IMG/VR virus record: IMGVR_UViG_3300044987_001088
Location: 1-20,012 of that record
Source: a virus
Length of the DNA stretch: 20,012 nucleotides
Direction: 5' to 3' (one strand)
This document shows, in pieces, positions 30 to 19,928 of this stretch. The notes under the pieces were generated by a model that was not told the origin of the DNA, made no database searches, and saw nothing but the letters and a program-made list of their open reading frames with translations. The position numbers were made by a program, and so were the translations under genes. The stretch's first letter is position 1. Every line of letters begins with the position of its first letter.

Positions 30-3000
30 ATGGCGGATACTAAAAAAACAGTTAATTTATTGCCCGAGTATCTAAGAACAGATAAGAATGCCAAATTCTT
101 ATCCAGCACCCTTGACCAATTTATTCAGACACCCCAATTAGAGCGAGTTGATGGATATGTAGGCTCAAAGATTACTCCTACTTATGATCCAAATACAGAT
201 TTTTATCTAACAGAAGCGTCACCTCTTCGTAAAAATTATCAATTAGAGCCTGCTCTAATTATTAAAGATCAAAATTCTAAAATTACTGATGTTGTTGCAT
301 TTGATGATATCATTAATGAATTAACAATCCAAGGAGCAAAAACTGAAAATTTAGATACTTTGTTAAGAACAGAGTTCTATTCGTTTAATCCTCCTATTGA
401 CTGGGACAAGTTGGTTAATTTTGACCAATACTACTGGCTTCCAACAGCGCCAAAGTCTATATTAGTTGACAATACAGGCACAAACATTTTTACATCAGTA
501 ATTGGTCAATCAACTTATACTATGCCTAATGGATATGCGCTGAGCAACGGTATGAATGTAATCTTTAAATATTCTGCAACAACCGGAACTAATACAGTTG
601 TTGCAGGTAGAGAATATATTGTTGAAGGTGTTGGCAGCTCTATTAAATTAGTCAGTCTTGATTCTTTAGAATCTTTTGATTCGTTTCTAGTTGTTTATAA
701 CGAAACATTTGACAGCGAGCAATTTGATGATTTTCCGTTCGATGGCGATAAAAAATTACCTGTATATCAAGAATACATAACAATTAATAGAGCCAGTAAT
801 GATAAAAATTCGTGGAGTCGATACAATCGTTGGTTCCATAAAGATGTAATTAAAACTGCGGCTGAGGCCAACGGCCTGGTGCCAACTTATGATGCCAACT
901 TTAGAGCAAAGCGTCCAATTGTTGAATTTAACGCCGATCTCCAATTGTATAATTTTGGTAAGGCCGGAATACCAGCAGTTAATCTAATTGACAATGACAC
1001 AGTAGATGCATTTTCTACAGTGCAGGGATCTTACGGTTATTATGTCGATGAAGTATTATTAGAAGCTGGATTTAAAGTTATCTTTAATGCAGACACAAAT
1101 CCTGATGTAAGGGGCAAAGTCTACGTTGTATCTTATGATATTTCTAGTGGCACACCAATTTTACAATTGACTGAGGACTATACACCTTCTAATCTAGATT
1201 CTGTATCAGTAAAAGAAGGTGCTAATTCCAGCGGCACTAGCTGGCATTATCATGCAACTGACAATGTTTGGGTGTATTCTCAACAGCATACAAACTTAAA
1301 CGTATTTCCATTGTTTGATCTCTTTAACGACACTGGAGTAAGTTATACTGACTTATCTGCGAATAACTTTACTGGATGCAGAGTATTTAATTATGCAGTA
1401 GGATCCGGAATCAACGATACTGTTTTAGGATTTCCTCTAAAATATCAAAATAGTCAAGGAGTAGGTAGTTATCTATTCCAGAACTATTTCATGACTGACG
1501 AAATTTCTATTACTGAAAACAATGTTAGTTCAGTATTCCCAACTGGCATTACATTTTTAAAATATAATGACGGAAATAACACATTAGTAAATGTATGGAC
1601 TGACGCTGAAGAATATAAAATTCCTGTTAATGAAATACAAGTAATTCCTAGTTCAACTAGTTCATTAAAGGTCACTGCGTTTGATAAACCAATTAGCACA
1701 TCAACAACAGTTATTGCCTATGTTAACAATGTTAAAGTATCTACTACCGCTACAGTTAGTTCAACTGGTATTACCGTTAATTTTGAAAATACACTAGCTG
1801 TTAATGATACCGTTGTTTTAAAGTTAACATCTGACCAGGTTCCTAATGTAAATGGATATTATGAAGCTCCTTTGAGCTTAACTAATAATCCATTAAATGG
1901 TCCTATTTCTGATATGACACTTAGCGAGCTAAGTGATCATGTATTCACTGCAATCGGAAGGAACCCAAATTTTGAAGGTATTTTTCCCGGCTCTAGCAAT
2001 CTTAGAGATCTAAGTGATTATGCAAAATATGGAACACGATTTATTGTAAATGCAAATCCTATTTCTTTTGTTAAATTGTTCTTTGGTAAAAAAGAGCACA
2101 ATGTAATAGATGCTATACGATTTGCGGGAGATCAATACAATCAATTTAAGATGAATTTCTTAAAATCTTTAATTAATGTAACCGAGCAGTTAACTCCAGC
2201 AGATGCATTAGATGAAATTTTAAAAGATATTAATAAAAGCAAAGATTCAAAATCTCCGAATTATAGATCCGATATGTTAGCGTATGGGTCTGATAATACT
2301 ATAAGATTTTTTACAGTGACTGATAGCAATGTTACTGAATACCCAGTTGGATATAATTTCGATCTTGATGTTTTAAGTTTTAATTCCGTCCTTGTATACA
2401 TTAACGGAGTTCAACAAGTTTTTGGAAAAGATTATACTTTTAATAAAATTGACGGTTCTGTAATTTTTGATGCAGAATTATCTATAAATGATGAAATTGG
2501 AATAGTGTATTACCCAGATACTCTTGGTTGTTTTGTTCCTGCAACTCCTAGCAAACTAGGGTTATACCCAAAGTTTAAACCAGAACTAGTTACTGATGAC
2601 ACATACCTTGACAGCAGTGTAACAATGATTATTGGCCACGACGGTAGTATGATGAAAGCCTACGGCGATTATCGAGATGCTATTGTTTTAGAATACGAAA
2701 AAAGAATATACAACAACATTAAAGTTGAATACAACTCTGCAATTTTAGATGTTAACAAATACCTACCTGGCGTTTTTAGAGATACAAATAATTCAGTAGA
2801 AGAAATTAATAATATTCTTCAAAAGGATTTTATGAGATGGGCCGGATCCTATGGTGTTAACTATATTTCAAACACCGGGTTTGATGATGGAGATTCGTAT
2901 ACATGGAACTACACAGGCGGTGTTGACAAGTTGTTCAAGCAACCGTTAGCTGGATACTGGAGAAACGTATTTAAATATTTTTACGATACAGACCGACCTG

Positions 3001-6000
3001 ATACGCATCCATGGGAAATGCTAGGGTATTATGAAAAGCCGACTTGGTGGGACACTCATTATAGCTGGACAAATTTGTTAAAGCGAGCAAATTTAATTGA
3101 TGCATTAACTTATGGTAAGACTGAAGAATTTCCATCGTCAGTAGTGAATTCAACTTATGCAAGGCCCGGCTTTGCAAATGTAGTTCCTGTTAATACATTT
3201 GGTAATCTAATTACTCCTAATGTATTATTAGCTGGCCCGATGTCGTATACAGACATGAAAGCAGATTGGAAGTTTGGTGATCATGCTCCTGCAGAAACTG
3301 CGTGGAGAAAGAGTAGCCACTGGCCGTTTGCTATCAGCATATTGGCAGCATTATCTGATCCATCATCTTATGCATCCAGGATGTTTGATATCAGCAGAAC
3401 ATCTTTTAATATTAAAAATCAAATAACTTATAAAGAAGACGATTTATATCTAAGTCCTAAGAAGTTAGTTATCGAAGGTGACAACAATGCTCAGATTGCT
3501 GGGTTTGGTAATTTTGTTATTGAAAGGGGTAATCAACAAACAGTTAATTACACCACACTACTTAAAACAGATTTAACCTACATTAATTTTAATCTATTCC
3601 ACAAGCTGGGAGGTTTTGCCAGCAAAGATAAACTAAGAATTGTTATTGATTCTGTTGATCCATTAACTACTGGTCAGGGGGCGTTACTACCATCTGAGGA
3701 CTATTCGTTAATTTTAAATGTTAGTAACCCAGTTAAGTCATCTAGGATTTCTGGTATCATTGTTCAAAAATCAAACGGACAATTTGTTGTAAAAGGTTAC
3801 GACAGAATGAATCCTTATTTTGACATTTTAAAACCTATTAATACTGCGGTATCCGGTGGAGTAACAGTCGGCGGAACATCAGAATCTTTTACAGAGTGGT
3901 CTAATGTTGTTAACAACAGTAATCCTGCATTGGGTGCTACTGATAGCACAACTGCTAACTCTACAACAACTAGATATTATAGGCAAGGTCAATTAGTAAG
4001 ATATAACGGCAAGTTCTATCGAGTAAAAGTTGGACACACTGCACAATCTACATTTGATCCTGCATTGTTCCAATCATTATCGGGTCTTCCAGTAACCGGG
4101 GGAGCACGAGCTGCATTACCTGCAAAGTTTGCAGGCTCAACTACTCGTATTCCTTATGGCACAGCGTTTTCAACTATACAAGAAGTTTACGATCTTATTG
4201 TTGGATACGGTGCTTACTTAGAAAGCGAAGGATTTGTATTTGATCAATATAATACAGATCTTAATGAAGTAGTCGATTGGAAGTTTACAGGAAAAGAATT
4301 CTTATACTGGACTACACAGAATTGGTCAGATAATAATTTAATTACGTTGTCACCTTTTGCTGATTATTTAAAATACAGTTATTCAAATTCTATTGTAGAC
4401 GATGTTAGCGGTAAGTCTTATGATTATAGTTTGTTAAAAGCAGACGGCACACCGTTTCCTATTGAACGGTTTACTTTATCTAGAGAAGATGCAATTTGTG
4501 TAATTAAAACAGTTAACACTGAAGATGGGTTATTTTTTGCTGTTTTAAATTCTGTGCAGAAAGAGCATGGAATGGTATTTGAAAATACTACGTTGTTCAA
4601 TGACACTATCTATGATATCGAAACCGGATATAGACAGCGTAGAATTAAATTATCTGGATTTAGAACTAAAAACTGGAACGGAGATTTGTTTAGTCCGGGA
4701 TTTGTTTATGATTCAGTTGAAATAACTGATTGGGAACAATACCAAGAATACCTGCCTGGAAAAGTTGTAAGATACAACGGTGCATATTACGAATCTAAAA
4801 TTAGAGTTACAGGTTCTTCTTTTTTTAACTTTAACGAATGGGTAAAGTTAAGTGAAAAACCAATTCCTGATTTACTTCCAAACTTTGATTATAAGATTAA
4901 TCAATTTGAAGATTTCTATAGTTTAGACATTGACAACTTTGATGCAGGGCAACAACAGCTTGCTCAACATCTAATAGGCTATACTCCCCGTTCCTATTTA
5001 AACGAGATTTTTACTAATCCTATCAGTCAATATAAATTCTATCAAGGCCTTATCAAAGACAAGGGTACAAGAAATGCGTTGGATAAGTTATCTAAAGCAC
5101 GAATTTTTAACAATCAAGGATCAATTGATCTTAAAGAAGAGTGGGCATTTAGAATTGGCCACTATGGCGGATTTCCTTCCTATAATGAAATTGAGATTCC
5201 TTTAGAAGAAGGCACGTCTCTTGAAAATCCATATATTGTTAAGTTTGTAGGATCACTTCCCTCTAACAATAACCCGTTGGTTAATTATTACCTTCCTACA
5301 GATTTATTATTGTCTCCTGACAATTACGCATCATCATCTACATTTAAAACATACCCTAGCACATTTGATGATACAAATATCGAATTAACAACAGCTGGAT
5401 ATATTAGACCTGATGATGCTACATTTACTGCTTACAATAAAAATAGTTTATTAGATATTGCAAACAACACACTAATTCAAAATGGTAACACTATTTGGGT
5501 TGGCTTCTTAGAAAACGGCGGCTGGGACATATATCGATATACAAGGCAGTTGGCAAAAATTTCTGGAGTTTTTGTAAGTGCTCCTGCAAGTGAAATTACT
5601 TTTGTTACTAACTTATTTCACAATCTTTCAGTGGGAGATATTGTTTCTGTAGTTAGATTTAACGAACAAGTTAATGGAGTGTATGTTGTTACTGGCGTTC
5701 CTAAGTTAAACCAGTTTACTGTAGCATCGACACTTTCTACTATTACTAATGAAGAATTATTAGCATACGGTGCGCTGTTTAAATTTGACACCGCGCGATA
5801 TGGCTCCTTTAGTGATTTGTCTAAGGCACGAAACCTATTAGGGTTGTCTGCAGGTGAAAAGATTTGGATTGATAACGGATCGTCTGGCAAATGGGAAGTA
5901 TATGAAAAAGTAGAAAACTTTACATCTACATATTTTACCTCTGCAGGATTTAATGCTGGACAACGTTTAGGATACAGTATACATGCTCCTCAAGATAGTA

Positions 6001-9000
6001 ATACAGCGTTAGTATCTTTGCCTGGATATAGGATTCCTTCTAGCAACTTTGTTGGTAGAGTATGGGTAACTGAAAAGACACCATCTAAGTCTATTGAAAA
6101 ATTATTTGATTTTACTTTAAATTCTGCAACCGAAACTTACGCTGCAAATAACACAGCAACTGAATTTGGTTATTCAATGGCCTTTGACATTGCTAAAAAC
6201 TTATATATTGTTGGAGCACCGTCGGCAAGTTTAGTCAGAGCAACTTCTGTCCCTGGACCTGTAACATACAGCACTGGGTCCGGCACCACAAGAATTTATG
6301 ATTATGAAGGTATTGTTAAGATTAGCACAAAGAGTGGAAATGCTAATGCAGAATTAGTTAAGAGAGTTCTTGCACATCCTTATATTGTTAATGCAAATAA
6401 TTCTAGATTTGGCCACTCTGTTTATACAACTCAAAATGCCGCCTCAACTTCTACTTTGTTATTAGTTGGCGCACCGGGCACTACTAGTCATGTAGGAACT
6501 GGTTCAGTATTTGCATATAAGCTAGATTTAACAACTTCTACAGTTAATGTTTCTGCACACAATATCTTTATGGTAGGAACTACTAGCACAGCAGTCCCGT
6601 TAACTATTGGCAGCAAGTTTGGACATAAGATTTCTGGAAGTCTTGATGGAACTAAGATTGCAATCTCTGCGCCCTCATATACCACTTCCACAGCCGGCAC
6701 TACCTACGTCGGAGTTGTTCAGATATTTGACGAGAATTTGACCTGGAAACAAAAAATATTTTCACCATTCGGCACAGACACTGAATTTGGTAGTGATGTA
6801 GCAGTATCATCCACCGGTAAATTTATTGCTATCTCTAGTATAGATGCTCGTCGTAACTCTATCGATCAATATGGCAAAGTTGCTGTTTACAAATGGAATA
6901 ACACATCAAGTCAATATGTCTGGCAACAGACTATTGAAAATTCTGCATCAGCTGGCAACTTAAAGTTTGGATGTGCAATTGATTTTAGCAAAGACGAAAA
7001 GACTTTAGTAATTTCATCATTGGGCACTAATAGATCACAAGTTATTGAATTTGATAAGGCTTCAAAATCTGGTGAAACAACATTTGACGGTGCAACAACT
7101 AGATTTGTTGCAGCTATTCCTGATTCCGGAACTGTTTATGTTTACAATAACCTTGGTGACTATTTTATACAATCTGAAGAATTATCAAATGTAGATATTT
7201 TAGAAGGTAGCAGATATGGAGCTTCGGTTGTTGCTAACAACAATAGTATCTTTATTGGCGCCCCATCATATGCTAGTGTCGGTATTAACACAATTTCAAT
7301 GTCTACTAGCACTATTGCAGGGCTATCTATCGGTGAAAATGCTAGAGTAGAATTTTCAGAACCTGAATTAGATCCTGGTGTTACTCCGTATGTATTGCCA
7401 ATCTATGGCAACGTAACTTCGACGACTAAAGATATTATCGGACTAAGAATAGTAAATGCCGGAACTGGATATCAGTCAAAACCTGTGGCATATTTAAAGA
7501 ATTCTGCAGGAACGATTCTTGATACATTAGTGGTAACACTATCTGCTGATAATTCTAGATTCTATAGATTTAATAAAGTAGATGACTCTACCAATGGGTG
7601 GAACTTATTAAGAGAACAGCCAGATACTGTTGATGTCACTACAGTGAAGCGTATTGCACTAATTGATTCCTTTAAAGAAGAAGTGATTGATTACTTAGAT
7701 GTTTTTGATCCGTTAAAAGGAAAAATTCCAGGTATTGCAGAACAAGAATTAAAATACAAAGCAGCATTTGATCCCGCAGTATACTCTATTGGTATTGCAG
7801 GAACTGTTAATGATGATGAAACAAATTGGATTGATGAGCATATTGGTGAGCTATGGTGGGATTTAAGCACTGCTAAGTATGTCTGGTATGAGCAAGGCGA
7901 TGAAATTTTTAGAAAAAACAATTGGGGCAAACTATTCCCAGGTGCAAGTATTGACGTGTATGAATGGGTGAAATCTGATTTACTACCAAGTGATTGGGCT
8001 GCTCAAGCTGACACCAATGAAGGTTTAACAAACGGAATAAGTGGACAACCAAAATATCCAGACAACAGTGTTGTTTCTGTAAAACAAATATTCAATACTG
8101 TAACAAGTTCTTTTGAAAATGTTCATTACTTTTGGGTTAAGAACAAAGTAACATTACCGGAGTCTAGCAATAGAAGAATTTCCAGTTATCAAGTTGCAAG
8201 TATTATTAGCGATCCACGAGCACTTGGCCTTAAATTTGCTGAGGTGCTTTCTTCGGATTCTATAGCACTGGCTAACGTTCAACCATCATTAGTTGGTAAT
8301 AGGATTAATGCAAATATTGTCACTGATAATATTAACAACGAAATTCCACGTCATACAGAGTGGTTGTTGTTAGAAGAAGGAAATGATAAGACTGTTATTA
8401 ACACTTTATTAGAAAAGAAATTAGTTGATAGTTTGTTAGGACATGATTCCTTTGGTAACCAAGTTCCTGCAAATAACCTTACAGATAGAAACAAATATGG
8501 GTTAGGAATTCGCCCTCAGCAGACAATTTTTAAAGATAGATTTGAAGCATTGAGAAATTTGGTGGGATTTACAAACAGCGTATTGACTGCAAATAGAATT
8601 ACAGGTAATTATTCTTTTGATAATCTCAATACTAAAGAAGAAATTCCCAATGAATTTAGTAGAGACTATGATTTAATTGTTGAAGACTTATCAGAATTAG
8701 AAGATGTAGAAACATCACAATTTAGAAAAGCAACAGCAGTATGCTTTGTATCTAATGGTAAAGTTAAAAATGTAATTATTACTGATCAGGGACTAGGATA
8801 TACATCACCACCTGCAATTACTGTTTCGGCAACAACTGGCACAGGCGCAGTTATCTTAACTGAAATTGACAATTTTGGTAGAGTTATTAATGCAACAGTA
8901 TCTGTTTCTGGAAATGGATACGAACAAGCGCCTTTAATAGAAGTTAGATCACACACTGTTTATGTCCAAGTAAACGAAAACTACGGAAACCGTTGGACTA

Positions 9001-12000
9001 AACACATATATGACTATGAGTTTGATCAGTGGATTAGGATTAAAACACAAACATTTAACACTAAGAACTATTGGACTTACGCCAATTGGATAGATCCTTC
9101 TTACAGTCCTTATAAAGATTACAGCTATGTTGTTAGTGACACATACGAATTAGCAAAATTAGTTGATGCGGTGCCTGGAGATTATGTTAAAGTTAAAAAC
9201 ATAGGCAATGACAATTTTGCAATCCTTGAAAAATTAGATAACAGCACAGTTGGGAACTTCACTCCTAGTTATAATATTATCTACAGTGAAAACGGAACTA
9301 TACAAATCTTAGATTCTATTTGGAATTATGGAACAGGATATGATGTTAATACACTTGAAGAAACATTGTATGATGAAATTCCTGATCTAGAGTTACAATA
9401 TATTTTGACTGCTCTTAAAGAAGATATTTTTATCAAAGACCTTAAAGTTAATTGGAATCTATTCTTCTTCAAGGCTGTTCGATACGCACTTACTGAACAG
9501 AAGTTGTTAGACTGGGCTTTTAAAACATCATTTATTAATGTTCAAAATAGATCTGGAATATTAGATCAACGATCAGTTTACAAACTTGATAATGAAACAG
9601 CAGTAGAAGAATACATTAGAGAGATTAAACCATATCATTCTAAATTAAAAGATTTTACATCTTTCTATAGTTACTCTGATACAACAGCCGAAGGCGTGGC
9701 AATGTCGGCAACTGATTTTGATTTGCCTTCTTATTATAACACAACTACTGACAAATTCACAACAGTTAGTTTGGGAGATAATTTATTAGGATCTCGTCCG
9801 TGGAAAGATTGGGCAGACAATTATACATACATGGTAGAAGATGTCATTGTTGCTGACAGGGGCGTTGGTTACAACTCAACAGTTTCTGTTCGTATCCTAG
9901 GCGGCGGCCCAAATGTTATTACTACTGCTACTGCGGAAGCCTATATAAGAAACGGCGGCATCTATAAGATTCTTGTTACAAACTCTGGAACAGGCTATAC
10001 TACTTCACCGTGGGTGGAAATAACAGGTGGTGGCTCAAATGTAACTACGGTTGCTACAGCGTCAGCAATATTAGGTGGCTCGCCAGTTCGTAAAAATACG
10101 TTAGGACTTAGATTTGATAGAGTTAGTGCAATTAATGAAATTGGTCAACAGACATATACTGATACATTTGTTTGCAATGGCACTACTGAAGGATTTGTAT
10201 TAACTTGGTTAGCTGAACCTAACAAAACAAATATTGTTCCATTGTTAGATGGAAAGTTAATTTTTGCAACTGATTACACTATCGAATACTACACAGAAGA
10301 ATTTAATGGGTATAAGAAAAAATATTCTAAGTTTGTATTCTTAAAACAAATTCCAAAAGAGAATCAGGTGTTTAAGATTACTTACAATAAACATATTGAT
10401 CTATACACAGCAGTTGACAGAATTGATAATTTCTATAACCCAACTAATACAATGATCGGTGACAACGTAGCATTGTTAATGGACGGAGTTGAATACCCAC
10501 AGACACAAATACAAGGCCTGCCGTTCGATTACTCTACCTACTGGGATGCTGCAAATGGTTACGAAAATTCTGCTTGGGAAGATTTAGTTAATTATTATGC
10601 ATCGGCTAAGGTAACTGCCACAGCAACGATTGGCGCAACAACTTTATATTTGAATACTACAACTGGAATAGTTCCAGGCCAAATATTAAATATGTTAAAC
10701 ACAACTACTAATGTTATTAGAACTGATACAGTGGTGTTATCTGTGTCAACTGCATCTAGAACTATTACAATTAGTAACCCTTCTTATACATTAAAAAGAA
10801 TTAGGGCAGCAAATACATCTTCTTTAGGAATTGGTTCGTCTATTATCGTTGAGACTAACAGTTTATTCAAGGGAGACATTCGCCAAGGCGATATTGCAAT
10901 TTTGTCTGGAATTACCTCTGTCGGTTATAATGGAACCTACACTGTAGATGAAATTTTAGGCAATGCAAAATTTAGAGTAACTGCTACTTCTGTATTGTCC
11001 ACTGCTAGGGCAGCAATTAGTGTTAGCGCCGCAGTTAATGTTTCTAGTTTAACAAAACAGATTAATGCAAAGAGTGTGTTCTTAAACAACTATGTTTATA
11101 CAGCAACAAATACATCTACTGCATTAATTGTTACACAATCACCATTAGCTGATGTTACTCGACATGTAGTAACTGCTACAACAAATACAAGTATTATTTC
11201 GTTAACCACAGTTACGTCTACTGTTACTTTATATTATTCTGTAATTCAAGATCCGTCAATTACAGGAAGAGCAGCCGTTAGAGTTTACAACTTAAACACA
11301 ACTACTGCAACCACTATTAATATTAATCTATATAGTGATCCTGCAATTGAATTCTGGGTAAATGATACAAATGCAACAGCATTGGATACTTCAATATCTG
11401 GAGGTAGTTGGTCAGGTGTTGGAATGTCTGGCGCACTTGGTATTGCACCAGAAGACATAATTATTGATGGCGACAGTTTACTAAATGCTAATGCAGGACA
11501 TGCACCAGAAGAGTGTGTTGCGGGACATGTGGTTGATAGTTTGGGCATGAACGTTTATACTAGAAATACTGATCAAAGTGCAGTTATTATTACTGGCGCA
11601 TTTGCTGTAACATCATTGAATACAACAGTGACTTCATACCTAAGTATAGACGATACTGCAATTGCTGGTATTCGAGTTTCTCTAAACGGTGTTACATATG
11701 AAAGGGTTACTAGTTTAGCATTTACTGATACAGATCAGTTCTTTATTGAAGGACGAGTAATTACATTACCGCCACAAACAATGGTTGGTCGCGTTGGATA
11801 CACAATTGTTACAGTGGGCGGCGATGTTTTATTAGATAGCGGCAGTGTTCAAACTTATGGACAATCTTCGGCAATAATTTATAGTTCACTAAGCGAATCT
11901 GATATTAAAGGAGCGTATGTATTAGTTGACGGAACCGAGGTATTTGAAGTAACAACTTCTACAAGTTACGGTTATATGTTGAATGTAAATAATCCACTAA

Positions 12001-13721
12001 ACAATCGAGCATCGGTTACTGTTTATAATTTACCTACAGGAAACCACACTGTTGAAGCATGGTTTTTTGATAACCCATATGGAAACTACAATAGGTTCAA
12101 CGAACAAATAATACAAAGTGATCCATTTACAACTATTGATACATTTACGCTTGACTACCCTCCTGGCAATGTTGAACCTTTGAGTTCTCAAGTAATTGTC
12201 GAACTGTCAACAGGAACAGATCTCACTAACCGTTTAAGACTTACTCCGCCTTGGGTTACTTACTACAAGGTAGAAAACAATCAAACAATATTTCCAATAG
12301 AAACTAAGTATCAAAACCCGGAATGGACAGGCAGCTCATATACTATTGATACACTTAAAGTCTACGCTAACGGCATAATACTACGTGCAGGTTTTGATTA
12401 TACAATTGATAATACCGGAGCCGGATCAATTACTATTACTTCGAACTTGCTAAACAACGGAGATGTTCTTGCAATTGAACTCCTACTTCCTGGTTATTAC
12501 GACTATGTAGTTACAGGAAATACTTTAAGATTAACAACTGCAATTCCGATCCCTGGCACCTCTGAAAATTCGTTAAAGGTAACCTCCTTTACGACCCACG
12601 ACAACATGAATATTAGGACTGAAAGATTTTTTGGCAATGGTGCGAATAAACGTTTTACCTTGGCACTACCTCCGTTATCTGATAGTTATGTTTGGGTATC
12701 TGTAGCAGGCGCATTCTTAATTCCTAATTATGATTTTGAAATATTAGAAGATGGTAAAACTATACAGATTAGCGAATGGTATACTATTAATGAGAATGCT
12801 GACATAGTAATTACTAGTTTTGATATGCCATACAATGGCAGTCAAATTATTGGTTATAGAATTTTTAAAGACATGTTTGACAAACCTTTCTATACAAGAT
12901 TGTCTAAAGCTCATACAACTGAATTGTCTAGAGATCTTCTTTATACTGATACTGAAATTTATGTAACGGACGATGATAAAGTTGTTCCTCCAAATCCTGC
13001 ACAAAACAAACCAGGGGTGTTGATATTAGATGCAGAACGGATTGAATTCTTTAAGAAAGAAGGCAATGTGCTAAGTCAACTTCGCCGTTCTACTTTGGGA
13101 ACTGGTCCTGCAAGATTCTCAGAAGCAGGAACAAAAGTATTAGATCAAAGTCTATTACAACGAATTCCTTATGCAGAATACGAATACAAACAGCATATTC
13201 TTAGCACAACTGCTACTATCTATACAATCAACACTGCTACTTCTTTATTTGCTGCTAATACAACTGGCACAGCAATTACATTAGCATCTAGTGTGCCGGC
13301 CGTTGACCAGATTGAAGTATATTATGGCGGAAGAAGACTTCGTAAAAATTCAATTGAGGTGCATGATAAAGCTATTGCTTATGATTCTAATACTTCGATT
13401 GTTCTTAACGGAATAACAACTACCACCAATATAACATTGGCCGCTGAATTTACAGTAACAACTTCTACACAAGCATTACACTTAAATATAGCTGGCGGAG
13501 TTACTACTGGAACTAGAATTACTGTTATTCAACGTCAAGGGAGAATTTGGAATACCTTAACAGAATCCTTATTAACAAGCAATTCTCTTCAGGCACAGTT
13601 CTTAAGAGATGCTCAAGCTGAATTGCCTAACACTTATTATTATGGTGGTGATCCAGCACTGTCTGAGATAACAAATACGCCGTTAACAAATGATGATGGT
13701 TCACCATTAGAAGGATATTAA
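30..13721 (+). CDS. Giant multidomain virion structural protein (4563 aa)
   Basis: This is a single open frame of 4563 residues with no frameshift or intein, and no signal peptide or membrane segment that I can see. Visible blocks in order: an N-terminal block with [10 protein letters not shown] and [16 protein letters not shown] (1-140); [13 protein letters not shown] (from 262); an '[13 protein letters not shown]' beta module (about 784); [17 protein letters not shown] (868); [16 protein letters not shown] (975) and [24 protein letters not shown] (1083); two YNG carbohydrate-module-like motifs (about 1320 and 1575); [14 protein letters not shown] (1625); seven FG-GAP repeats (1980-2418); [14 protein letters not shown] (2600); G-x-GY repeats; KPYHSK (3200); [15 protein letters not shown] (3825); two more NG/DYT-like modules (4109, 4224); LRRSTLGTG (4351). 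I recall these blocks from very large structural proteins of marine myoviruses, where their role is poorly defined. A tail, baseplate or fibre role is inference from composition and the fibre genes downstream. The ATG at 30 follows a probable TAA by one base. The frame is well supported; the exact function is not. Confidence 0.88.
2952..3335 (+). other. Conserved aromatic-rich block of the giant protein
   Basis: This covers residues about 975-1101. It opens with [16 protein letters not shown], continues with [16 protein letters not shown], and closes with [19 protein letters not shown]. The density of Trp, Tyr, His and Pro is far above the Ser/Thr-rich surroundings, which suggests a compact folded core rather than a fibre shaft. 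I recall the same wording from large structural proteins of marine T4-like phages. No enzymatic motif is visible, so I assign no activity. Confidence 0.6.
5967..7283 (+). repeat. Seven FG-GAP repeats: predicted seven-bladed beta-propeller
   Basis: Within the giant protein, seven repeats begin with (L/F/Y)G-x-(S/K/D/A) and run to a GAP-, SAP- or SS-type turn. They start at residues 1980 (LGYSIH), 2046 (FGYSMAF), 2127 (FGHSVY), 2197 (FGHKISGS), 2253 (FGSDVAVSS), 2313 (FGCAIDFS) and 2396 (YGASVVAN). Turns include IVGAP, LVGAP, AISAP and FIGAP. Spacing is 56 to 83 residues. Seven FG-GAP units is the number that closes an integrin-alpha-type propeller, so the domain looks complete. The classical DxDxDG calcium loop is missing from the repeats, which resemble the FG-GAP_2 type more than the integrin calcium-binding type. 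An adhesion or protein-binding platform is inferred. Confidence 0.75.
7434..7530 (+). repeat. Single G-x-GY beta repeat
   Basis: Around residues 2469-2500 of the giant protein is [17 protein letters not shown], matching the pattern 'V..V.I.N.G.GY...P.V' seen again twice further on. It lies directly after the propeller. Such G-x-GY repeats are common in phage fibre and baseplate beta-structures. Boundaries are approximate. Confidence 0.5.
7827..7869 (+). other. [14 protein letters not shown] conserved motif
   Basis: Residues 2600-2613 of the giant protein carry [14 protein letters not shown], preceded by [20 protein letters not shown] and followed by a YEQGD and a WGKLFPG segment. I recall this arrangement from large marine-phage structural proteins. 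The LWWD core resembles the LWYD/LWVD motif of the fibre proteins at the end of this window, but the surrounding residues differ, so I do not claim homology. Confidence 0.5.
8763..8950 (+). repeat. G-x-GY beta repeat pair
   Basis: Residues about 2912-2973 hold two tandem copies of one pattern: [17 protein letters not shown] followed by [17 protein letters not shown], each leading into a hydrophobic beta strand. It is a short duplicated beta module inside the giant protein, related to the units near residues 2470 and 3270. Boundaries are approximate. Confidence 0.55.
9372..9662 (+). other. Conserved KPYHSK block of the giant protein
   Basis: Residues 3115-3211 run from [20 protein letters not shown] through [17 protein letters not shown] and DWAFKTSFI to [17 protein letters not shown] (KPYH starts at 3200). 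Unlike the beta-rich neighbours, this part has charged and aliphatic periodicity suggestive of helices. I recall the 'DWAFKTSFI ... KPYH(S/T)K' combination as a hallmark of giant structural proteins in marine myoviruses. Its biochemical role is unknown to me. Confidence 0.55.
9834..10080 (+). repeat. G-x-GY / glycine-rich beta repeat pair
   Basis: Residues about 3269-3350 contain two units, [19 protein letters not shown] then ILGGGPNV, and [19 protein letters not shown] then ITGGGSNV, each followed by an alanine/threonine-rich strand (TATAEAYI and TVATASAIL). The second unit is a clear copy of the first, indicating internal duplication. The GY and GGG turns are typical of phage fibre beta-prisms and similar folds. 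Boundaries are approximate. Confidence 0.6.
13709..13715 (+). promoter_or_regulatory. Ribosome-binding site for the collagen-like gene
   Basis: AGAAGGA lies within the last codons of the giant gene, 8 bases before the ATG at 13724. It is the best Shine-Dalgarno match among the junctions in this window and supports that start. Confidence 0.6.
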
Positions 13722-13723
13722 AA

Positions 13724-14521
13724 ATGACAAAAGTTACACAATTACCGTTACTGACTACTGCTACTAGTGCTACAAGCATTCTGGTAGTTGATGATAAGTT
13801 GACAAGGAAAATTGTTTACAGTAATCTAGTCCATGCCGTTGCGGTAGATGCAGTCGGAACTGGATTGATTTCTGTAGGAAATACTGGACCAACTGGCCCC
13901 CAAGGACCTAGAGGACCAACTGGCCCCCAAGGCCCACTTGGAGTAACTGGCCCCCAAGGCCCCCAAGGTGTGCCCGGACCGACTGGCCCAAGTGGCGGAC
14001 CAACTGGCCCAAGTGGGCCCACTGGAGCAGGAGTTCCCACAGGAGGCCTTGTTGGGCAATCGTTAGTAAAAGCATCCAATACTGATTATGATACTACGTG
14101 GCAAACTATTAGTGGCGGAGGAGGTGGCGGCGGGAGCCTACAGTCTAGAACTACGGGCACTGGTTATACATTATCTATCAGTAGCGGAACAACATCAACA
14201 ATTAACATTACTGGTTTTAAAACTTATGTTTTATCAAAAGTTACGACCACATATCCAGCTTGGGTAAGATTGTATACAGATGCAACTAGTAGAACCAACG
14301 ATGTTGCTAGAACTGAAGGCAACGATCCTACTCCCGGCAGTGGAATTATCGCTGAAGTTATTACTACATCTGGGTCTTTGACACAGTTAATTACACCCGG
14401 AGTTATTGGATTTAACAATGATACTTCGACTGTTACTACTGTGTATTTGTCTGTAACAAATAAAGATACAGTATCAAGATCAATTGGTGTTACCTTAACT
14501 TTGTTACAATTGGAATCATAA
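13724..14521 (+). CDS. Collagen-like phage fibre protein (265 aa)
   Basis: The N-terminus ([20 protein letters not shown]...) is the short attachment style of phage fibres. Residues 52-103 are collagen-like: 13 unbroken Gly-X-Y triplets (52-90), a one-residue insertion (Gly91), then four more triplets. Then come [16 protein letters not shown], a motif I recall from phage fibres, and a run of seven glycines (131-137) forming a flexible linker. The C-terminal domain (about 145-265) includes [43 protein letters not shown] and a final [10 protein letters not shown], a beta-rich cap I recall in other tailed-phage fibres. The Gly-X-Y part should form a trimeric triple helix, so a trimeric virion fibre or decoration is likely. 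Receptor binding by the C-terminal cap is inference. The ATG follows the giant gene's TAA by two bases with a good ribosome-binding site. Confidence 0.85.
13877..14032 (+). repeat. DNA repeats encoding the Gly-X-Y stretch, 27-bp period
   Basis: The 15-mer AACTGGCCCCCAAGG occurs at 13891, 13918 and 13945, a perfect 27-base period (three Gly-X-Y triplets). A variant, ACTGGCCCAAGTGG, occurs at 13982 and 14003, 21 bases apart; this short offset reflects the single inserted glycine. The tract is visibly richer in G and C than its surroundings because of Gly and Pro codons. The regular period points to growth by slippage or unequal recombination. Confidence 0.8.
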
Positions 14522-14522
14522 T

Positions 14523-16181
14523 ATGTCTCTTAAAGAATATATTGTTACTCTCCACAGCACGGAAGACTTGGAATCTTTTTATGAAGATATAGAAACTCCT
14601 GGCGGAAATCTATATATTCCTAATCGAGCAGTCCCTGTGCATGTTAGACGTCCAATGAGTAGAAATACACATTATATGCTAACTGATATAGAAGCTAAAC
14701 AACTTGCAGATGATCCTCGAGTTATGGCAGTTGAGTTATCTATGGAAGAGCAAGGTATTCAATTTAGACCAATATGGACACAGACTAGCAGTTTGTGGAA
14801 TAAATCTACCACACTTAGTTCTTCCTATAAAAATTGGGGATTGCTTAGAGTAACTGAAGGTAAACAACGACTAAATTGGGGCAGCACTGCTACTACTACT
14901 GTTTCTGGGTCAATAACTGTTACTGCCAGCGGAAAGAATGTTGATGTTGTTATTGTTGACGGCCATGTTGATCCTACACATCCAGAATTTGCAGTAGATC
15001 CTAGTGGATCGGGCGGCAGTAGGATTAATCAATACAACTGGTTCCTATTAAATCCAGAAGTTACAGGAGGTCCGGCAGGGACTTATGTCTATCCTCCGTA
15101 TGTTGATGCTGCGTATCCAGATAATAACCTTGATGGGATATCTGACAGAACAGCAGATAACGATCACGGTACTCACGTTGCAGGTATTGCGGTCGGCAAT
15201 TCTCAAGGATGGGCAAGAGATGCAAATATTTATAATATAAGCCCCTACTCAACAACACCCAGCGTCACCAGCTTTTTTATTGATTATATTAGAGCATGGC
15301 ATAGACAAAAACCAGTTAATCCTATAACAGGAAGAAAAAATCCAACAATTACTAATCATAGTTACGGAATAGTAAACAAAGTATTAATATCGTCAATTAC
15401 TTCTGTTCGATATCAAGGAGTTACTACAGTGGCCCCTCTAACAGCCGGTCAACTAACAAATCGTGGGATTTATAATGATGGAACCTATGTGTATATGCCC
15501 GGCAGAGCTACATTGGCATTTGAACAAGATTATATAGATGCAATGGCCGAAGGTATTATCTTTGTCGGTGCAGCAGGAAATAACGGATCACTAATTTCTG
15601 AATATAACGCCAATGTCTCTGATAATTATAACAACAGAGTTGACGTAGGTGGAACATTCTATTTTTGGAATAGAGGATCAATATCTGCAATTGATGGAAT
15701 GTTATGTGTCGGTGCTATTGGCATAGCAGTAGAAGATTTTATTTGGTCGTTAACTGAAAGAGGTCCTAGGGTCGATGTGTTTGCTCCTGGTAGACAGATT
15801 ATGAGCAGTGTTAATTCTAGTGTTGGCACAACTGTAGATGATCCTAGAAACTCTTCTTATAGAGTTACTAAAAAGACTGGAACAAGTATGGCAAGTCCGC
15901 AAGTTTGTGGAATACTTGCTTGTCTTGCAGAAACCTGGCAAAATTTATCTCAGTCGCAAGCAATTGAATATATACAAAGATATTCGAAAGAAAATCAAAT
16001 TACGGCGTCAACAGGCGGATTTACTGATACTACGGACTTACTAGGAGCTCCGAACAGATACTTGTATTTCTATAAAGAACGTCCAGTATCTGGGCAAGTT
16101 GGACCCAAGACCAATTTAAATCTTCGTCCTACAACGGGACAAATGTGGCCTCGCCCGCACATATATAGATACGGAAGATAA
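14523..16181 (+). CDS. Subtilisin-family (S8) serine protease in the virion operon (552 aa)
   Basis: The catalytic signatures are complete: Asp146 in VIVDGHVDPTHPEF, His215 in DNDHGTHVAGIAVG, oxyanion Asn353 in GAAGNNG, and Ser455 in GTSMASPQVCG. The N-terminal 75 residues (EYIVTLHSTEDLESFYED ... LADDPRVMAVE) resemble an I9-type inhibitor propeptide, suggesting a zymogen that removes its own prodomain. There is no signal peptide, so it is cytoplasmic or virion-packaged. The C-terminus ends in a basic, proline-rich tail (TTGQMWPRPHIYRYGR). The Asp motif is unusual: the residues after Asp are Gly-His where subtilisins usually have Ser/Thr-Gly. The start is one base after the previous TAA, with only a weak GGAA upstream. 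Placement among fibre and structural genes suggests virion maturation or host-surface proteolysis, which is inference. The peptidase assignment is firm. Confidence 0.93.
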   Translation: MSLKEYIVTLHSTEDLESFYEDIETPGGNLYIPNRAVPVHVRRPMSRNTHYMLTDIEAKQLADDPRVMAVELSMEEQGIQFRPIWTQTSSLWNKSTTLSSSYKNWGLLRVTEGKQRLNWGSTATTTVSGSITVTASGKNVDVVIVDGHVDPTHPEFAVDPSGSGGSRINQYNWFLLNPEVTGGPAGTYVYPPYVDAAYPDNNLDGISDRTADNDHGTHVAGIAVGNSQGWARDANIYNISPYSTTPSVTSFFIDYIRAWHRQKPVNPITGRKNPTITNHSYGIVNKVLISSITSVRYQGVTTVAPLTAGQLTNRGIYNDGTYVYMPGRATLAFEQDYIDAMAEGIIFVGAAGNNGSLISEYNANVSDNYNNRVDVGGTFYFWNRGSISAIDGMLCVGAIGIAVEDFIWSLTERGPRVDVFAPGRQIMSSVNSSVGTTVDDPRNSSYRVTKKTGTSMASPQVCGILACLAETWQNLSQSQAIEYIQRYSKENQITASTGGFTDTTDLLGAPNRYLYFYKERPVSGQVGPKTNLNLRPTTGQMWPRPHIYRYGR

Positions 16182-16858: not shown

Positions 16859-18853
16859 ATGTCATCAACTTATACACTAAATTTTTCGGATCCCACAAAG
16901 ACTGATACCATAACAGTTCCGGGCACCGCAGTTGGTCCCGGTAAGAATAATTACAGCACTAGTCTTGAATTAATAGGACCCGGCTATACAAATTTTGGTC
17001 AACCTTCAGCGCAGAATCTTGTTAAACTTTTAGAAAACTTTTCCAGCCCTCATCCTCCAAATAATGCGATCGAAGGACAGTTGTGGTATGACACCAGTAA
17101 TCCCGATAGAAAAGTTTTAAGAGTTAATAACGGAACAGCAACTAGCACTCGTTGGCCGAATGTCAGCGGAATATATCATCAACCTAATGACCCTAGTGTG
17201 CAATATTCACTAAGTGTTAAATCTGGAGACCTTTGGGTTGACACTAGTGAAAATCAACTCAAACTTAGAGTTGCAAATACTTGGTCAGTTATTGGCCCAG
17301 GTGCAAGTTCAGGATTAGACAAAACAGGCAGCGAAGCTGCATTTGTTCAAAGCAATACAGGAACAACATATCCTATAATACTTAATTGGGCTAATGGTAA
17401 AGTTGTAGAAGTTATTGCATTCAATGAATTTATACCTAGAACAGTAATTGACGGGTTTACTACAATTAAACCTGGATCAAATTTAACAAATAAAGCTCTT
17501 GCAAAATACAACGGATTAGCTGATAGAGCATCTGCACTCGAAGTTGCACCAAACGTTCTTATTAGGTCCTATGAAGTATTAAAGAATAGAGTAACAAGCC
17601 AAACTCATACAGGGACATTTATTATTCAGGATGCAACCGGACTATTGGTTAAAAATAATTTTTTTCCGTCTGAAAGTATTAGGGTATATAATACATCCGG
17701 CATTGGATACGTAAGCCTTGTTAGTTCTAGTAAACCATTTAAAGTGGGTGTAGGATCTGCGGGAAGTGATGCGTATATTCAGTTCAACCCTCAGAGTAGA
17801 ACAGTTGGAATTAATACTGGATCAGCAGTTGCTACGTTGACTGTCAATGGGTCTGGAAGATTTGAAAATACACTAACAGTTACAACTACTGCATCAGTTG
17901 CATTGAGTATTGCAGGGGGAACGGCAGTTGGTGGAAAATTAACAGTTTCTGGAGACTTTCAGTTATTGGGAGCTACTACCGCAACTGGCCTAGTAACACT
18001 TGGATCACTAGCAGGTAGTGGCACAATTTTAATACCAGCAGCCAACGATGTTTACGATCTTGGCACAACATCTACGGCATTTAGAAAATTATTTGTTTCT
18101 CAAATTGGTGCTACCGGCACTAACGTTGACATTTACGGAACAGTTTACGGAACTGCTACGACATTAGAATCTGCAAGAACTTTCCGTGTAGAGGGAGTTG
18201 TAACTACTACTGTAACTTCGTCTTTTGATGGATCTGCCAATGTAGTGTTTACAACAACTGCACATAAGAGTTTAATAACCGGGCAAGAAACAACATCTAC
18301 GACTGCTGCAACGTTGACTATGTTAGTAGTTAATACATCAACTACAACATCTGTTTTACAACAAATTTCTAAAGCAAATTTCTTATCTGACGTTTATCCG
18401 TTGTTAGTTCCTACTGGAATGATTACTCCTTGGCCAATTTCGACGGCAACAAGCGGTTATTTAATATGTGATGGATCAGAAGTTAGCCAGACGACATACA
18501 GCGCCTTATACAATATGTTTGGATTGCTGTATAATCCGACTCCGACTGCGGGAACATTTAAACTTCCCGACATGCGATATTCTACTGTATTAACTAAGAC
18601 AACAGTAGAAGCATCAACAGTTTCACAATTTGCATCAGCAGGTACTGATACTATTGCTTTATCGACATTAACAAACATTACAGTAGGATTGATGGTTGAC
18701 GGCTATAGTGCTATCGGATACGGTACTTCTGTAGCATCATTTATTGGAACGGATAGTATTAAGTTATCTGCAAATATTGTAGGTGATATTGCAAGCGGAA
18801 TATCATTATCCTTTAGCACAGCTACATATATGAATTACGTTATAAAGACATAA
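16859..18853 (+). CDS. Tail fibre protein with LWYD modules and C-terminal collar motif (664 aa)
   Basis: The N-terminal module (1-150) has NLVKLLENF, then EGQLWYDTS (72-80) and GDLWVDTS (123-130), ending at WSVIGPG. These LWYD modules are typical of marine myovirus fibre proteins. A middle region (150-300) contains IAFNEFIP and GFTTIKPGSNL. The shaft (300-510) is a Thr/Ser/Gly/Val-rich beta stretch with VYDLGTTSTAFRKLFVSQIG and ARTFRVEG. The C-terminus has a tail-collar motif: PTGMITPWP (518-526), GYLICDGSEVSQTTYSALY (533-551) and FKLPDMR (567-573). The usual remainder of the collar is replaced by another module (594-654) before the closing MNYVIKT. Collar domains normally sit at the tips or attachment sites of phage fibres. 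The start follows the previous TAA by two bases. A host-contact fibre is the best reading. Confidence 0.85.
   Translation: MSSTYTLNFSDPTKTDTITVPGTAVGPGKNNYSTSLELIGPGYTNFGQPSAQNLVKLLENFSSPHPPNNAIEGQLWYDTSNPDRKVLRVNNGTATSTRWPNVSGIYHQPNDPSVQYSLSVKSGDLWVDTSENQLKLRVANTWSVIGPGASSGLDKTGSEAAFVQSNTGTTYPIILNWANGKVVEVIAFNEFIPRTVIDGFTTIKPGSNLTNKALAKYNGLADRASALEVAPNVLIRSYEVLKNRVTSQTHTGTFIIQDATGLLVKNNFFPSESIRVYNTSGIGYVSLVSSSKPFKVGVGSAGSDAYIQFNPQSRTVGINTGSAVATLTVNGSGRFENTLTVTTTASVALSIAGGTAVGGKLTVSGDFQLLGATTATGLVTLGSLAGSGTILIPAANDVYDLGTTSTAFRKLFVSQIGATGTNVDIYGTVYGTATTLESARTFRVEGVVTTTVTSSFDGSANVVFTTTAHKSLITGQETTSTTAATLTMLVVNTSTTTSVLQQISKANFLSDVYPLLVPTGMITPWPISTATSGYLICDGSEVSQTTYSALYNMFGLLYNPTPTAGTFKLPDMRYSTVLTKTTVEASTVSQFASAGTDTIALSTLTNITVGLMVDGYSAIGYGTSVASFIGTDSIKLSANIVGDIASGISLSFSTATYMNYVIKT
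18639..18821 (+). other. Replacement module in the collar domain
   Basis: Residues about 594-654 of the 664-residue fibre, with TDTIALSTLTNITVGLMVDG, GYGTSVASF, TDSIKLS and ISLSFS, sit between FKLPDMR and the terminal MNYVIKT. The 'T-x-(I/L)-x-L ... (V)G(L/Q) ... I-x-(L/I)S' layout resembles residues about 3533-3590 of the giant protein ([20 protein letters not shown], then ISNP). It appears to be a small portable beta module. Boundaries are approximate and homology to the giant protein is tentative. Confidence 0.45.
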
Positions 18854-18857
18854 GAAC

Positions 18858-19928
18858 ATGGCCTACATAATTTACAACAACGATGGATCAGTATTAACAA
18901 CTTTGTCAGATGGCGAAGTTGATGTGCTGTCTACCAGCTTAACACTACTCGGAAAGAATGTTAACAACTATGGACAATATTGGAATAATAATCTTGTAAA
19001 GTTGTTAACTAATTCTGCACTAGGTGTTCAACCCTTACAACCTCAGTTGGGACAGCTTTGGTATAACTCATCTGCTAAAACATTAAATGTTTGGAACGGC
19101 GCAGCCTTTACATCAGTTAGCGGAGCGAATGTATCGGGCACAGGACCAGTAGGAGTAAGCACTGGCACCATGTGGTATGACACTGTTAATAGTCAATTAA
19201 AAGTTTGGAACGGTTCAGTTTATAAAGTTATTGGGCCTGCAGTATCTTCTACTTACGGAAGCAAATTTGGAATTGAGCCACCGACAACTTCTACTATTAA
19301 AGAATACGTTACTAATTTACCTAAAGATGTAGGAGTTATATATTCATACGGAGATGCATTAGGATTATTAACAACTGCTTCTTTTGTTATGTCTACGGCA
19401 TCATCATACACATTCTTAAATGAAACGACTGCAACAACACTTATTGCTGGATTAACATTGAGAGATGATTTAGATGTTAAGGGCAATTTGTATATTGATG
19501 GTGTGCAACAAATTCCTCCTGTAAAAACATTAACGGCACAGTATGATATGTCCTTTTGGGGCAACCATTTTACTGGAGGATCAACATCGACTAGACAAAC
19601 AATAATCGATGTGGGTAATAATTTCCTAAGATTAAATTTGTTACCAATGTTGTTTACCACTGCAACCGAAACTTACGGAATAATTTATTCAAATGGTACC
19701 ACTGCTACATTTACTAGAGCGCAATACCCAACAGGATCCGAAGCTAATGTTATATGCAAATTATCCACTTATAACACTGGGACTACGGTAAGACGTTTTG
19801 TTCTTTTAGATATATTAGGGACAAGTAATAGACAATGGCAACCGAGGTATCTGCTAAACCCTAATGGTTCATTCTCTACCAGCACATATACAAGCCATAT
19901 AACAAATATTGTTTTGAATGCAGATTAA
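18858..19928 (+). CDS. Fibre-like protein, paralogue of its neighbours (356 aa)
   Basis: The N-terminus MAYIIYNNDGSVLTTLSDGE is the short form of the fibre module shared with flanking genes. It continues with NNYGQYWNNNLVKLLTN (36-52), GQLWYNSSAKTLNVWNG (65-81) and GTMWYDTVNSQLKVWNG (103-119), ending at YKVIGP. These two units match the LWYD and LWVD units of the 664-residue protein. The middle has DDLDVKGNLYIDGVQQIP (203-220), a typical fibre beta element. The C-terminal 130 residues (from about 225: LTAQYDMSFWGNHFTGGSTS ... RRFVLLDILG) look different from the collar of the neighbour and are not a family I recognise, so they may be a distinct tip. The start follows the previous TAA by four bases with a poor ribosome-binding site. 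A virion fibre or attachment protein is inferred. Confidence 0.8.
   Translation: MAYIIYNNDGSVLTTLSDGEVDVLSTSLTLLGKNVNNYGQYWNNNLVKLLTNSALGVQPLQPQLGQLWYNSSAKTLNVWNGAAFTSVSGANVSGTGPVGVSTGTMWYDTVNSQLKVWNGSVYKVIGPAVSSTYGSKFGIEPPTTSTIKEYVTNLPKDVGVIYSYGDALGLLTTASFVMSTASSYTFLNETTATTLIAGLTLRDDLDVKGNLYIDGVQQIPPVKTLTAQYDMSFWGNHFTGGSTSTRQTIIDVGNNFLRLNLLPMLFTTATETYGIIYSNGTTATFTRAQYPTGSEANVICKLSTYNTGTTVRRFVLLDILGTSNRQWQPRYLLNPNGSFSTSTYTSHITNIVLNAD

Follow-up and report, generated by a model that had tools for sequence, protein, structure and literature searches.

A predicted seven-bladed FG-GAP propeller of integrin-alpha-like fold, an optional module of a giant phage virion protein

Introduction

The closest described counterparts of the element considered here are the N-terminal beta-propellers of integrin alpha chains, built of seven blades from FG-GAP repeats, and the integrin-type FG-GAP propellers of bacteria, in which seven sequential repeats likewise occur in a non-animal protein, with one calcium site per repeat (PMC3192720, in the available text of which the words phage and virus have no occurrence). 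A ring of this type, devoid of such calcium sites, is predicted in the 20,012-base virus record IMGVR_UViG_3300044987_001088, analysed over its whole length and hereafter called the window, within a very large open reading frame (ORF):

30-13721, plus strand: giant virion protein of 4563 residues, matching phrog_10938, 'virion structural protein' (PHROG E 9e-304).

FG-GAP propellers are already known from viruses as annotations in model databases. Indeed, a Foldseek search of BFVD returned the same fold in the hemagglutinin A0A2L0UZX4 of Atu_ph07 (E 1.9e-14), in H6WG31 of S-TIM5 (E 5.9e-13) and in A0A6J5S3H5 of an uncultured member of the Caudovirales (E 3.0e-16). The Atu_ph07 propeller differs from the present one in being a stand-alone gene of 1182 nt beside tail-sheath genes, called hemagglutinin by annotation only, and it lies outside the giant protein of that phage. 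Among the first 8 to 20 matches listed per search of the open-licence literature, and in the accessible text of PMC13282480, PMC8023676, PMC12923769, PMC9218822 and PMC3192720, neither a phage baseplate nor a jumbo-phage virion protein was described as carrying an FG-GAP propeller. The arrangement for which no description was found is a ring occupying one fixed position, left empty in some relatives, of a jumbo-phage giant protein, and it is present in about 200 distinct sequences from uncultured viruses; an integrin-type head kept there without calcium sites widens the known range of FG-GAP domains. For most of the very large virion proteins found in jumbo phages, annotation does not go beyond 'virion structural protein'. 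For one stretch of such a protein, a fold, borders and natural pairs with and without the domain are now available, which makes its role testable.

Repeats, fold and borders of the propeller

A sequence-only reading of the window had proposed a complete propeller of seven FG-GAP-type repeats, with starts 56 to 83 residues apart, at 5967-7283 (residues 1980-2418). The repeats start at residues 1980, 2046, 2127, 2197, 2253, 2313 and 2396, that is, at intervals of 66, 81, 70, 56, 60 and 83 residues, in agreement with that reading, and their number was borne out by a hidden Markov model (HMM) built from 435 repeat copies of 67 relatives. On the 4563-residue protein, this model gave seven good matches, all within residues 1966-2420, and no other with an independent E-value (i-E) below 10; what is split off from the seventh repeat, its outer strands at 2506-2530, appeared as a weak tail of i-E 59. 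Because the repeat borders of the window had served to cut the copies, the HMM is partly circular, and each repeat was therefore rescored with a model omitting that repeat position. All seven outscored every one of their own 1000 shuffles, with 14.1-33.7 bits against shuffle maxima of 8.8-17.7. Both approaches thus return seven repeats, above the minimum of five that had been set for a propeller.

The fold was predicted with AlphaFold2 on a 68-row alignment of propellers (mean pLDDT, the predicted local distance difference test, 89.1; pTM, the predicted template modelling score, 0.87). Integrin alpha heads were the top structural matches of this model (Foldseek, VIA-align 2), with Z 37.0 for alpha-M/beta-2 9t3y (364 residues, 2.9 Å, 15% identity) and Z 35.6 for alpha-V 5ffg (383 residues, 3.0 Å). 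The aligned part, model residues 21-586, corresponds to window residues 1962-2527, and the same borders were obtained from a second model including the flanks (979 residues, pLDDT 79.6), in which the C flank is poorly predicted. Both predicted structures align to integrin heads at Z above 34, and the integrin match extends over the whole of the closed seven-bladed ring that had been anticipated. The proposed segment was right as to the propeller and ended too early, omitting the last two strands of blade 7, because an insert takes up residues 2416-2503 and the strands that close the blade lie behind it, at about 2510-2529. Within what computation can provide, the segment with these new borders is predicted almost beyond doubt to be a complete, closed seven-bladed FG-GAP propeller with an integrin-alpha-like fold, laid out as follows:

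5913-7610, plus strand: seven-bladed FG-GAP propeller (residues 1962-2527), from two predicted structures aligned to integrin alpha heads.
5931-6131, plus strand: repeat 1 (residues 1968-2034, LG at 1980), from HMM and leave-one-out scoring.
6129-6374, plus strand: repeat 2 (residues 2034-2115, FG at 2046), from HMM and leave-one-out scoring.
6372-6584, plus strand: repeat 3 (residues 2115-2185, FG at 2127), from HMM and leave-one-out scoring.
6582-6752, plus strand: repeat 4 (residues 2185-2241, FG at 2197), from HMM and leave-one-out scoring.
6750-6932, plus strand: repeat 5 (residues 2241-2301, FG at 2253), from HMM and leave-one-out scoring.
6930-7181, plus strand: repeat 6, long in its B-C loop (residues 2301-2384, FG at 2313), from HMM and leave-one-out scoring.
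7179-7268, plus strand: inner strands of repeat 7 (residues 2384-2413, YG at 2396), from HMM, leave-one-out scoring and model.
7275-7538, plus strand: insert (residues 2416-2503) interrupting blade 7 in its B-C loop; over 70% of the relatives have gaps at 2416-2490 and 2494-2503.
7557-7616, plus strand: outer strands closing blade 7 (residues 2510-2529), from model strands, the weak HMM tail and a corresponding hairpin of relatives with an empty site.

The B-C loop of blade 6 holds a TTFD...T.F stretch in which the D and T columns are near invariant in the family despite the length of the loop.

Comparison with Pfam was less direct. The propeller of the window scores 17 bits (E 0.0067) with FG-GAP_2 (PF14312), below the cut-off of 23; a Pfam scan of the whole giant ORF gave no FG-GAP at E<=1, and a PF14312 search of the window's own record gave no match, so that FG-GAP_2 is visible only by scans of the segment or of the alignment. 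Of the 68 aligned members, 65 match the profile at E<=1 (best 9.9e-15), and relatives such as L241 (60 bits), L003 (48.1) and L027 (38.5) exceed the cut-off. These low scores could be taken to mean that the repeats are a chance or low-complexity resemblance with no propeller behind it, an explanation that is scarcely credible beside the leave-one-out scores, the two predicted structures and the matches of a profile of the 68 aligned propellers to integrin alpha chains of the PDB (alpha-4 at 6.5e-15, alpha-M, alpha-IIb, alpha-V and others), the latter being a sign independent of the repeat HMM.

The criteria for an integrin-alpha-type beta-propeller were those given in the accessible text of PMC3192720 and PMC8023676. 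The repeat-start glycine is present in seven of seven repeats and the GAP-type proline in five, being missing in blades 5 and 6. No DxDxD-type calcium motif was found in the propeller of the window, in agreement with the earlier remark that the calcium loops of integrins are missing; a DxDxD/DxNxDG-type string occurs somewhere in 12 of the 68 members. The ring is thus of integrin type in fold and not in the strict sense, and it further differs from integrin alpha in sitting inside a phage virion protein.

Other searches with the propellers returned little. A PHROGs scan of the 68 propellers matched three families, with one member each (best E 0.0027), and tblastn with three of them (the window at E<=1e-3, L003 and L033 at E<=1e-2) matched 0 of 50,697 phage records. 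This zero reflects a limit of sensitivity, because profile searches found FG-GAP ORFs in two of seven whole cultured records, Atu_ph07 and Phosso. Of the 42 FG-GAP_2 matches in Phosso, most fall in two adjacent giant ORFs (L337, 48338-68978), which are 3182 and 3702 residues long and apparently form long chains of FG-GAP repeats.

The giant protein and its relatives

Relatives of residues 1-1940 of the giant protein were found by tblastn in 57 of the 50,697 phage records, all below 60% identity and nearly all from jumbo phages, including PA5oct, Atu_ph07, SCTP-2, Phosso, Vibrio 2.275.O, Munch and RaK2. The record of the PA5oct homologue carries a note of ESI-MS/MS (electrospray ionization tandem mass spectrometry). 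In four of these seven cultured relatives (PA5oct, Atu_ph07, Phosso and RaK2), the gene directly upstream of the giant is annotated as baseplate wedge; in SCTP-2, Munch and the Vibrio phage, it is hypothetical or named for a carbohydrate-binding module (CBM). The uncultured relative L002 displays the order gp25 (PF04965), gp6-like wedge protein (phrog_10646, phrog_219) and giant, and a wedge protein also precedes the giant in the uncultured L066 and L032. The giant thus stands directly after a gp6-type gene in relatives, as gp7 does in the T4 order. This position after gp25- and gp6-like genes suggests that the giant is a baseplate-linked protein of jumbo myoviruses.

For the propeller itself, 334 loci were collected, several of them fetched twice from one contig, and 318 had both flanks (the 16 in which no N flank was located were excluded, as was one locus with a short C flank); merging loci identical over 200 residues of the C flank left 238 distinct relatives. 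At least two FG repeats were detected at the site in 207 of the 238 and none in 31, a proportion that is not a frequency in nature, as the set consists of the best 80 of at least 600 rows per scan. Seven repeats were counted in 93 relatives, six in 56, five in 32, four in 19, three in 5 and two in 2; no relative had more than seven, and no FG-repeat match lay outside the site among the 238. With a looser threshold, 142 of the 207 have seven repeats and none has eight. In L196, which is among the 31 and had an HMM count of 0, diverged repeats can nevertheless be made out by eye, and this locus was entered by hand as 'propeller'. The giant proteins of the seven cultured phages are homologous to that of the window on both sides of the propeller, yet none of the seven holds FG repeats there. 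A profile search of whole records gave one full-length match in each of G001-G004, partial matches in one long frame in G005 and G007, and no match in G006, G008 and five of the seven cultured phages.

An optional module at one fixed site

The comparison with relatives lacking the domain makes use of three stretches around it:

4407-5255, plus strand: conserved N-side flank (residues 1460-1742), from relatives and flank comparison.
5256-5912, plus strand: mid segment from the N flank to the propeller (residues 1743-1961), kept in empty-site relatives.
7623-8609, plus strand: conserved C-side flank (residues 2532-2860), from alignment A1 and relatives.

A profile of the C flank matched no PDB sequence. 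From flank to flank, the window counts 784 residues, against 204 in Munch, 206 in RaK2, 266 in Vibrio 2.275.O, 319 in PA5oct and 507 in SCTP-2; Atu_ph07 and Phosso have 1532 and 1525 residues there, without FG repeats. These shorter spans, together with four relatives with an empty site (L116, L122, L123 and L139), support the proposal that the segment is an insertion. Its source may be a cellular protein, as the sequence-only reading suggested as one possibility. In L116 and L123, which align cleanly, the left-hand match ends at window residues 1958-1959 and the right-hand match resumes at 2524 and 2512, respectively; in L122 and L139, the right-hand match begins far to the left with poor identity. 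The borders in L116 and L123 imply that the hairpin ending the last blade has a counterpart in ring-free proteins, which may reflect either the mode of entry of the domain or the scar of its loss.

On a FastTree phylogeny of the C flank, 24 propeller-free rows, cultured phages included, form one group with support 99, and further propeller-free rows stand among propeller-bearing ones (L116 with L122, L123, L139, and L157 with L172). Presence of the domain requires at least 5 changes on this tree, against 28.7 in shuffles, with 75 of 235 inner branches open and long branches meeting at L290, L259, L007/L175 and L157/L172. With so few changes, frequent swapping at the site is weakened as an explanation, and the propeller is for the most part inherited. 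That it is an optional module confined to one fixed site of the giant is well supported, its insertion and absence being both observed in the alignments.

In L157, the propeller point is occupied by a YHYH domain (PF14240, 8.4e-31). It is tentatively conceivable, though rather unlikely, that the site serves as a port for domain exchange in the jumbo-phage baseplate, where an integrin-like ring, a YHYH domain or nothing would stand on the same hairpin. As part of this tentative idea, the host hairpin (W.VY.Y...W..R.Q in empty relatives) would supply the outer strands of the last blade and the carrier would complete the ring; if so, a change of one module could shift host recognition.

Several cassettes in or near the site drew attention. 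A GDSL-like lipase domain (6.5e-10) lies in the giant of L172 (4820-7048), just before the mid segment and not at the propeller point. A LamG/ConA-like look of the SCTP-2 and L175 cassettes, seen by eye, was not followed by any Pfam match, and no claim is made. One cassette of L215 (3746-7057) combines WD40/EML-type propeller matches (PF23414, 1.2e-7) with a weak FG-GAP_2 match and possibly holds two propellers. GYxxPP-type, phrog_460-like repeats occur at 8736-8960 (residues 2903-2977) of the window; by eye, the blade-7 insert contains similar stretches, and in Atu_ph07 and Phosso such stretches take up part of the site.

Sequence variation and possible role

Over 49 sequences, mean pairwise identity is 0.64 for the C flank, 0.46 for the mid segment and 0.35 for the propeller, in which the blade strands (0.39-0.53) are more conserved than the loops. 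Among the alignments, A2 was made without L027 and some near-identical loci, and A3 without nine loci with long or partial cassettes, 48 of the 60 prepared loci being taken. The pattern of variation fits the putative role put forward in the sequence-only reading, that of a surface binding glycans of the host or a further protein of the virion.

The explanation favoured here, and held to be somewhat probable, is that the propeller, as an optional module, lies exposed on the surface of the baseplate and binds to the host cell surface; it is the position in the virion, the exposure, the binding and the ligand that we infer. The conserved flanks would anchor the giant protein and the ring would display its loops outward from the baseplate, making contact at adsorption with the surface of the host cell, for instance with a glycan or a protein exposed there. 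The domain is common to one large part of the family, mostly inherited and more variable than its flanks; some of its loops take up extra inserts, and it appears to have been lost or replaced more than once with the host protein retained. A further point in favour is the stand-alone propeller gene, annotated hemagglutinin, that Atu_ph07 has beside its tail-sheath genes while its giant lacks the ring.

Several observations weigh against this explanation. About 5 changes of presence on the tree represent less turnover than a fast-switching adhesin would suggest. The loop classes hardly differ in conservation (0.25-0.33), so that no binding face stands out and a diversifying ligand face is not supported, and the long inserts occur on several loops and not on one face. 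As to the baseplate, the window starts too close to the giant ORF to include its own upstream gene, and hhalign of eight blocks of the giant against single T4 sequences (gp7 and other wedge proteins), a weak test given single-sequence targets, gave probabilities below 1%; the baseplate assignment rests on gene order because no similarity to T4 wedge proteins was seen.

The good conservation of the strands and the retention of the domain in 207 of the 238 relatives, mostly by inheritance with the giant, would also suit a docking or assembly platform, in which the propeller contacts another virion protein for baseplate architecture, like the integrin alpha head with the beta subunit. This is a possible though distinctly less probable alternative, as the identity of the propeller is below that of the flanks and the domain is absent several times while the host protein is otherwise intact.

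Less probable still, and on the whole improbable, is a ring acting as a scaffold for inserted domains that do the work. Single members with loops 60 to 131 residues long, the window insert at residues 2416-2503 and an insert of about 250 residues in L027 speak for it, whereas most members have no such insert, only 8 loop instances of at least 60 residues being counted in the 68-row alignment (3+1+1+3). The L027 insert (locus 7643-10048) lies within the propeller and shows by eye a PA14-like stretch, in which Pfam names nothing.

Other features of the giant and neighbouring genes

The giant holds two stretches in all that resemble CBM_5_12, including the following one upstream of the propeller:

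3975-4049, plus strand: CBM_5_12-like stretch (residues 1316-1340), Pfam 32 bits against a cut-off of 26.2.

Directly after the giant, a collagen-like repeat protein is encoded at 13724-14521, which at 25 bits narrowly misses the Pfam Collagen cut-off of 27.2, and a protein of this kind is found at the same place in L002. It is followed at 14523-16181 by a subtilase-family protein (PF00082, 1.1e-26) in the tail-gene cluster; the tail genes of Phosso include an S8 peptidase too. At 16859-19928, adjoining ORFs of 664 and 356 residues, the first with a tail collar domain, have an N-terminal module of phrog_14394 type in common, so that the region attaching tail fibres may have been duplicated.

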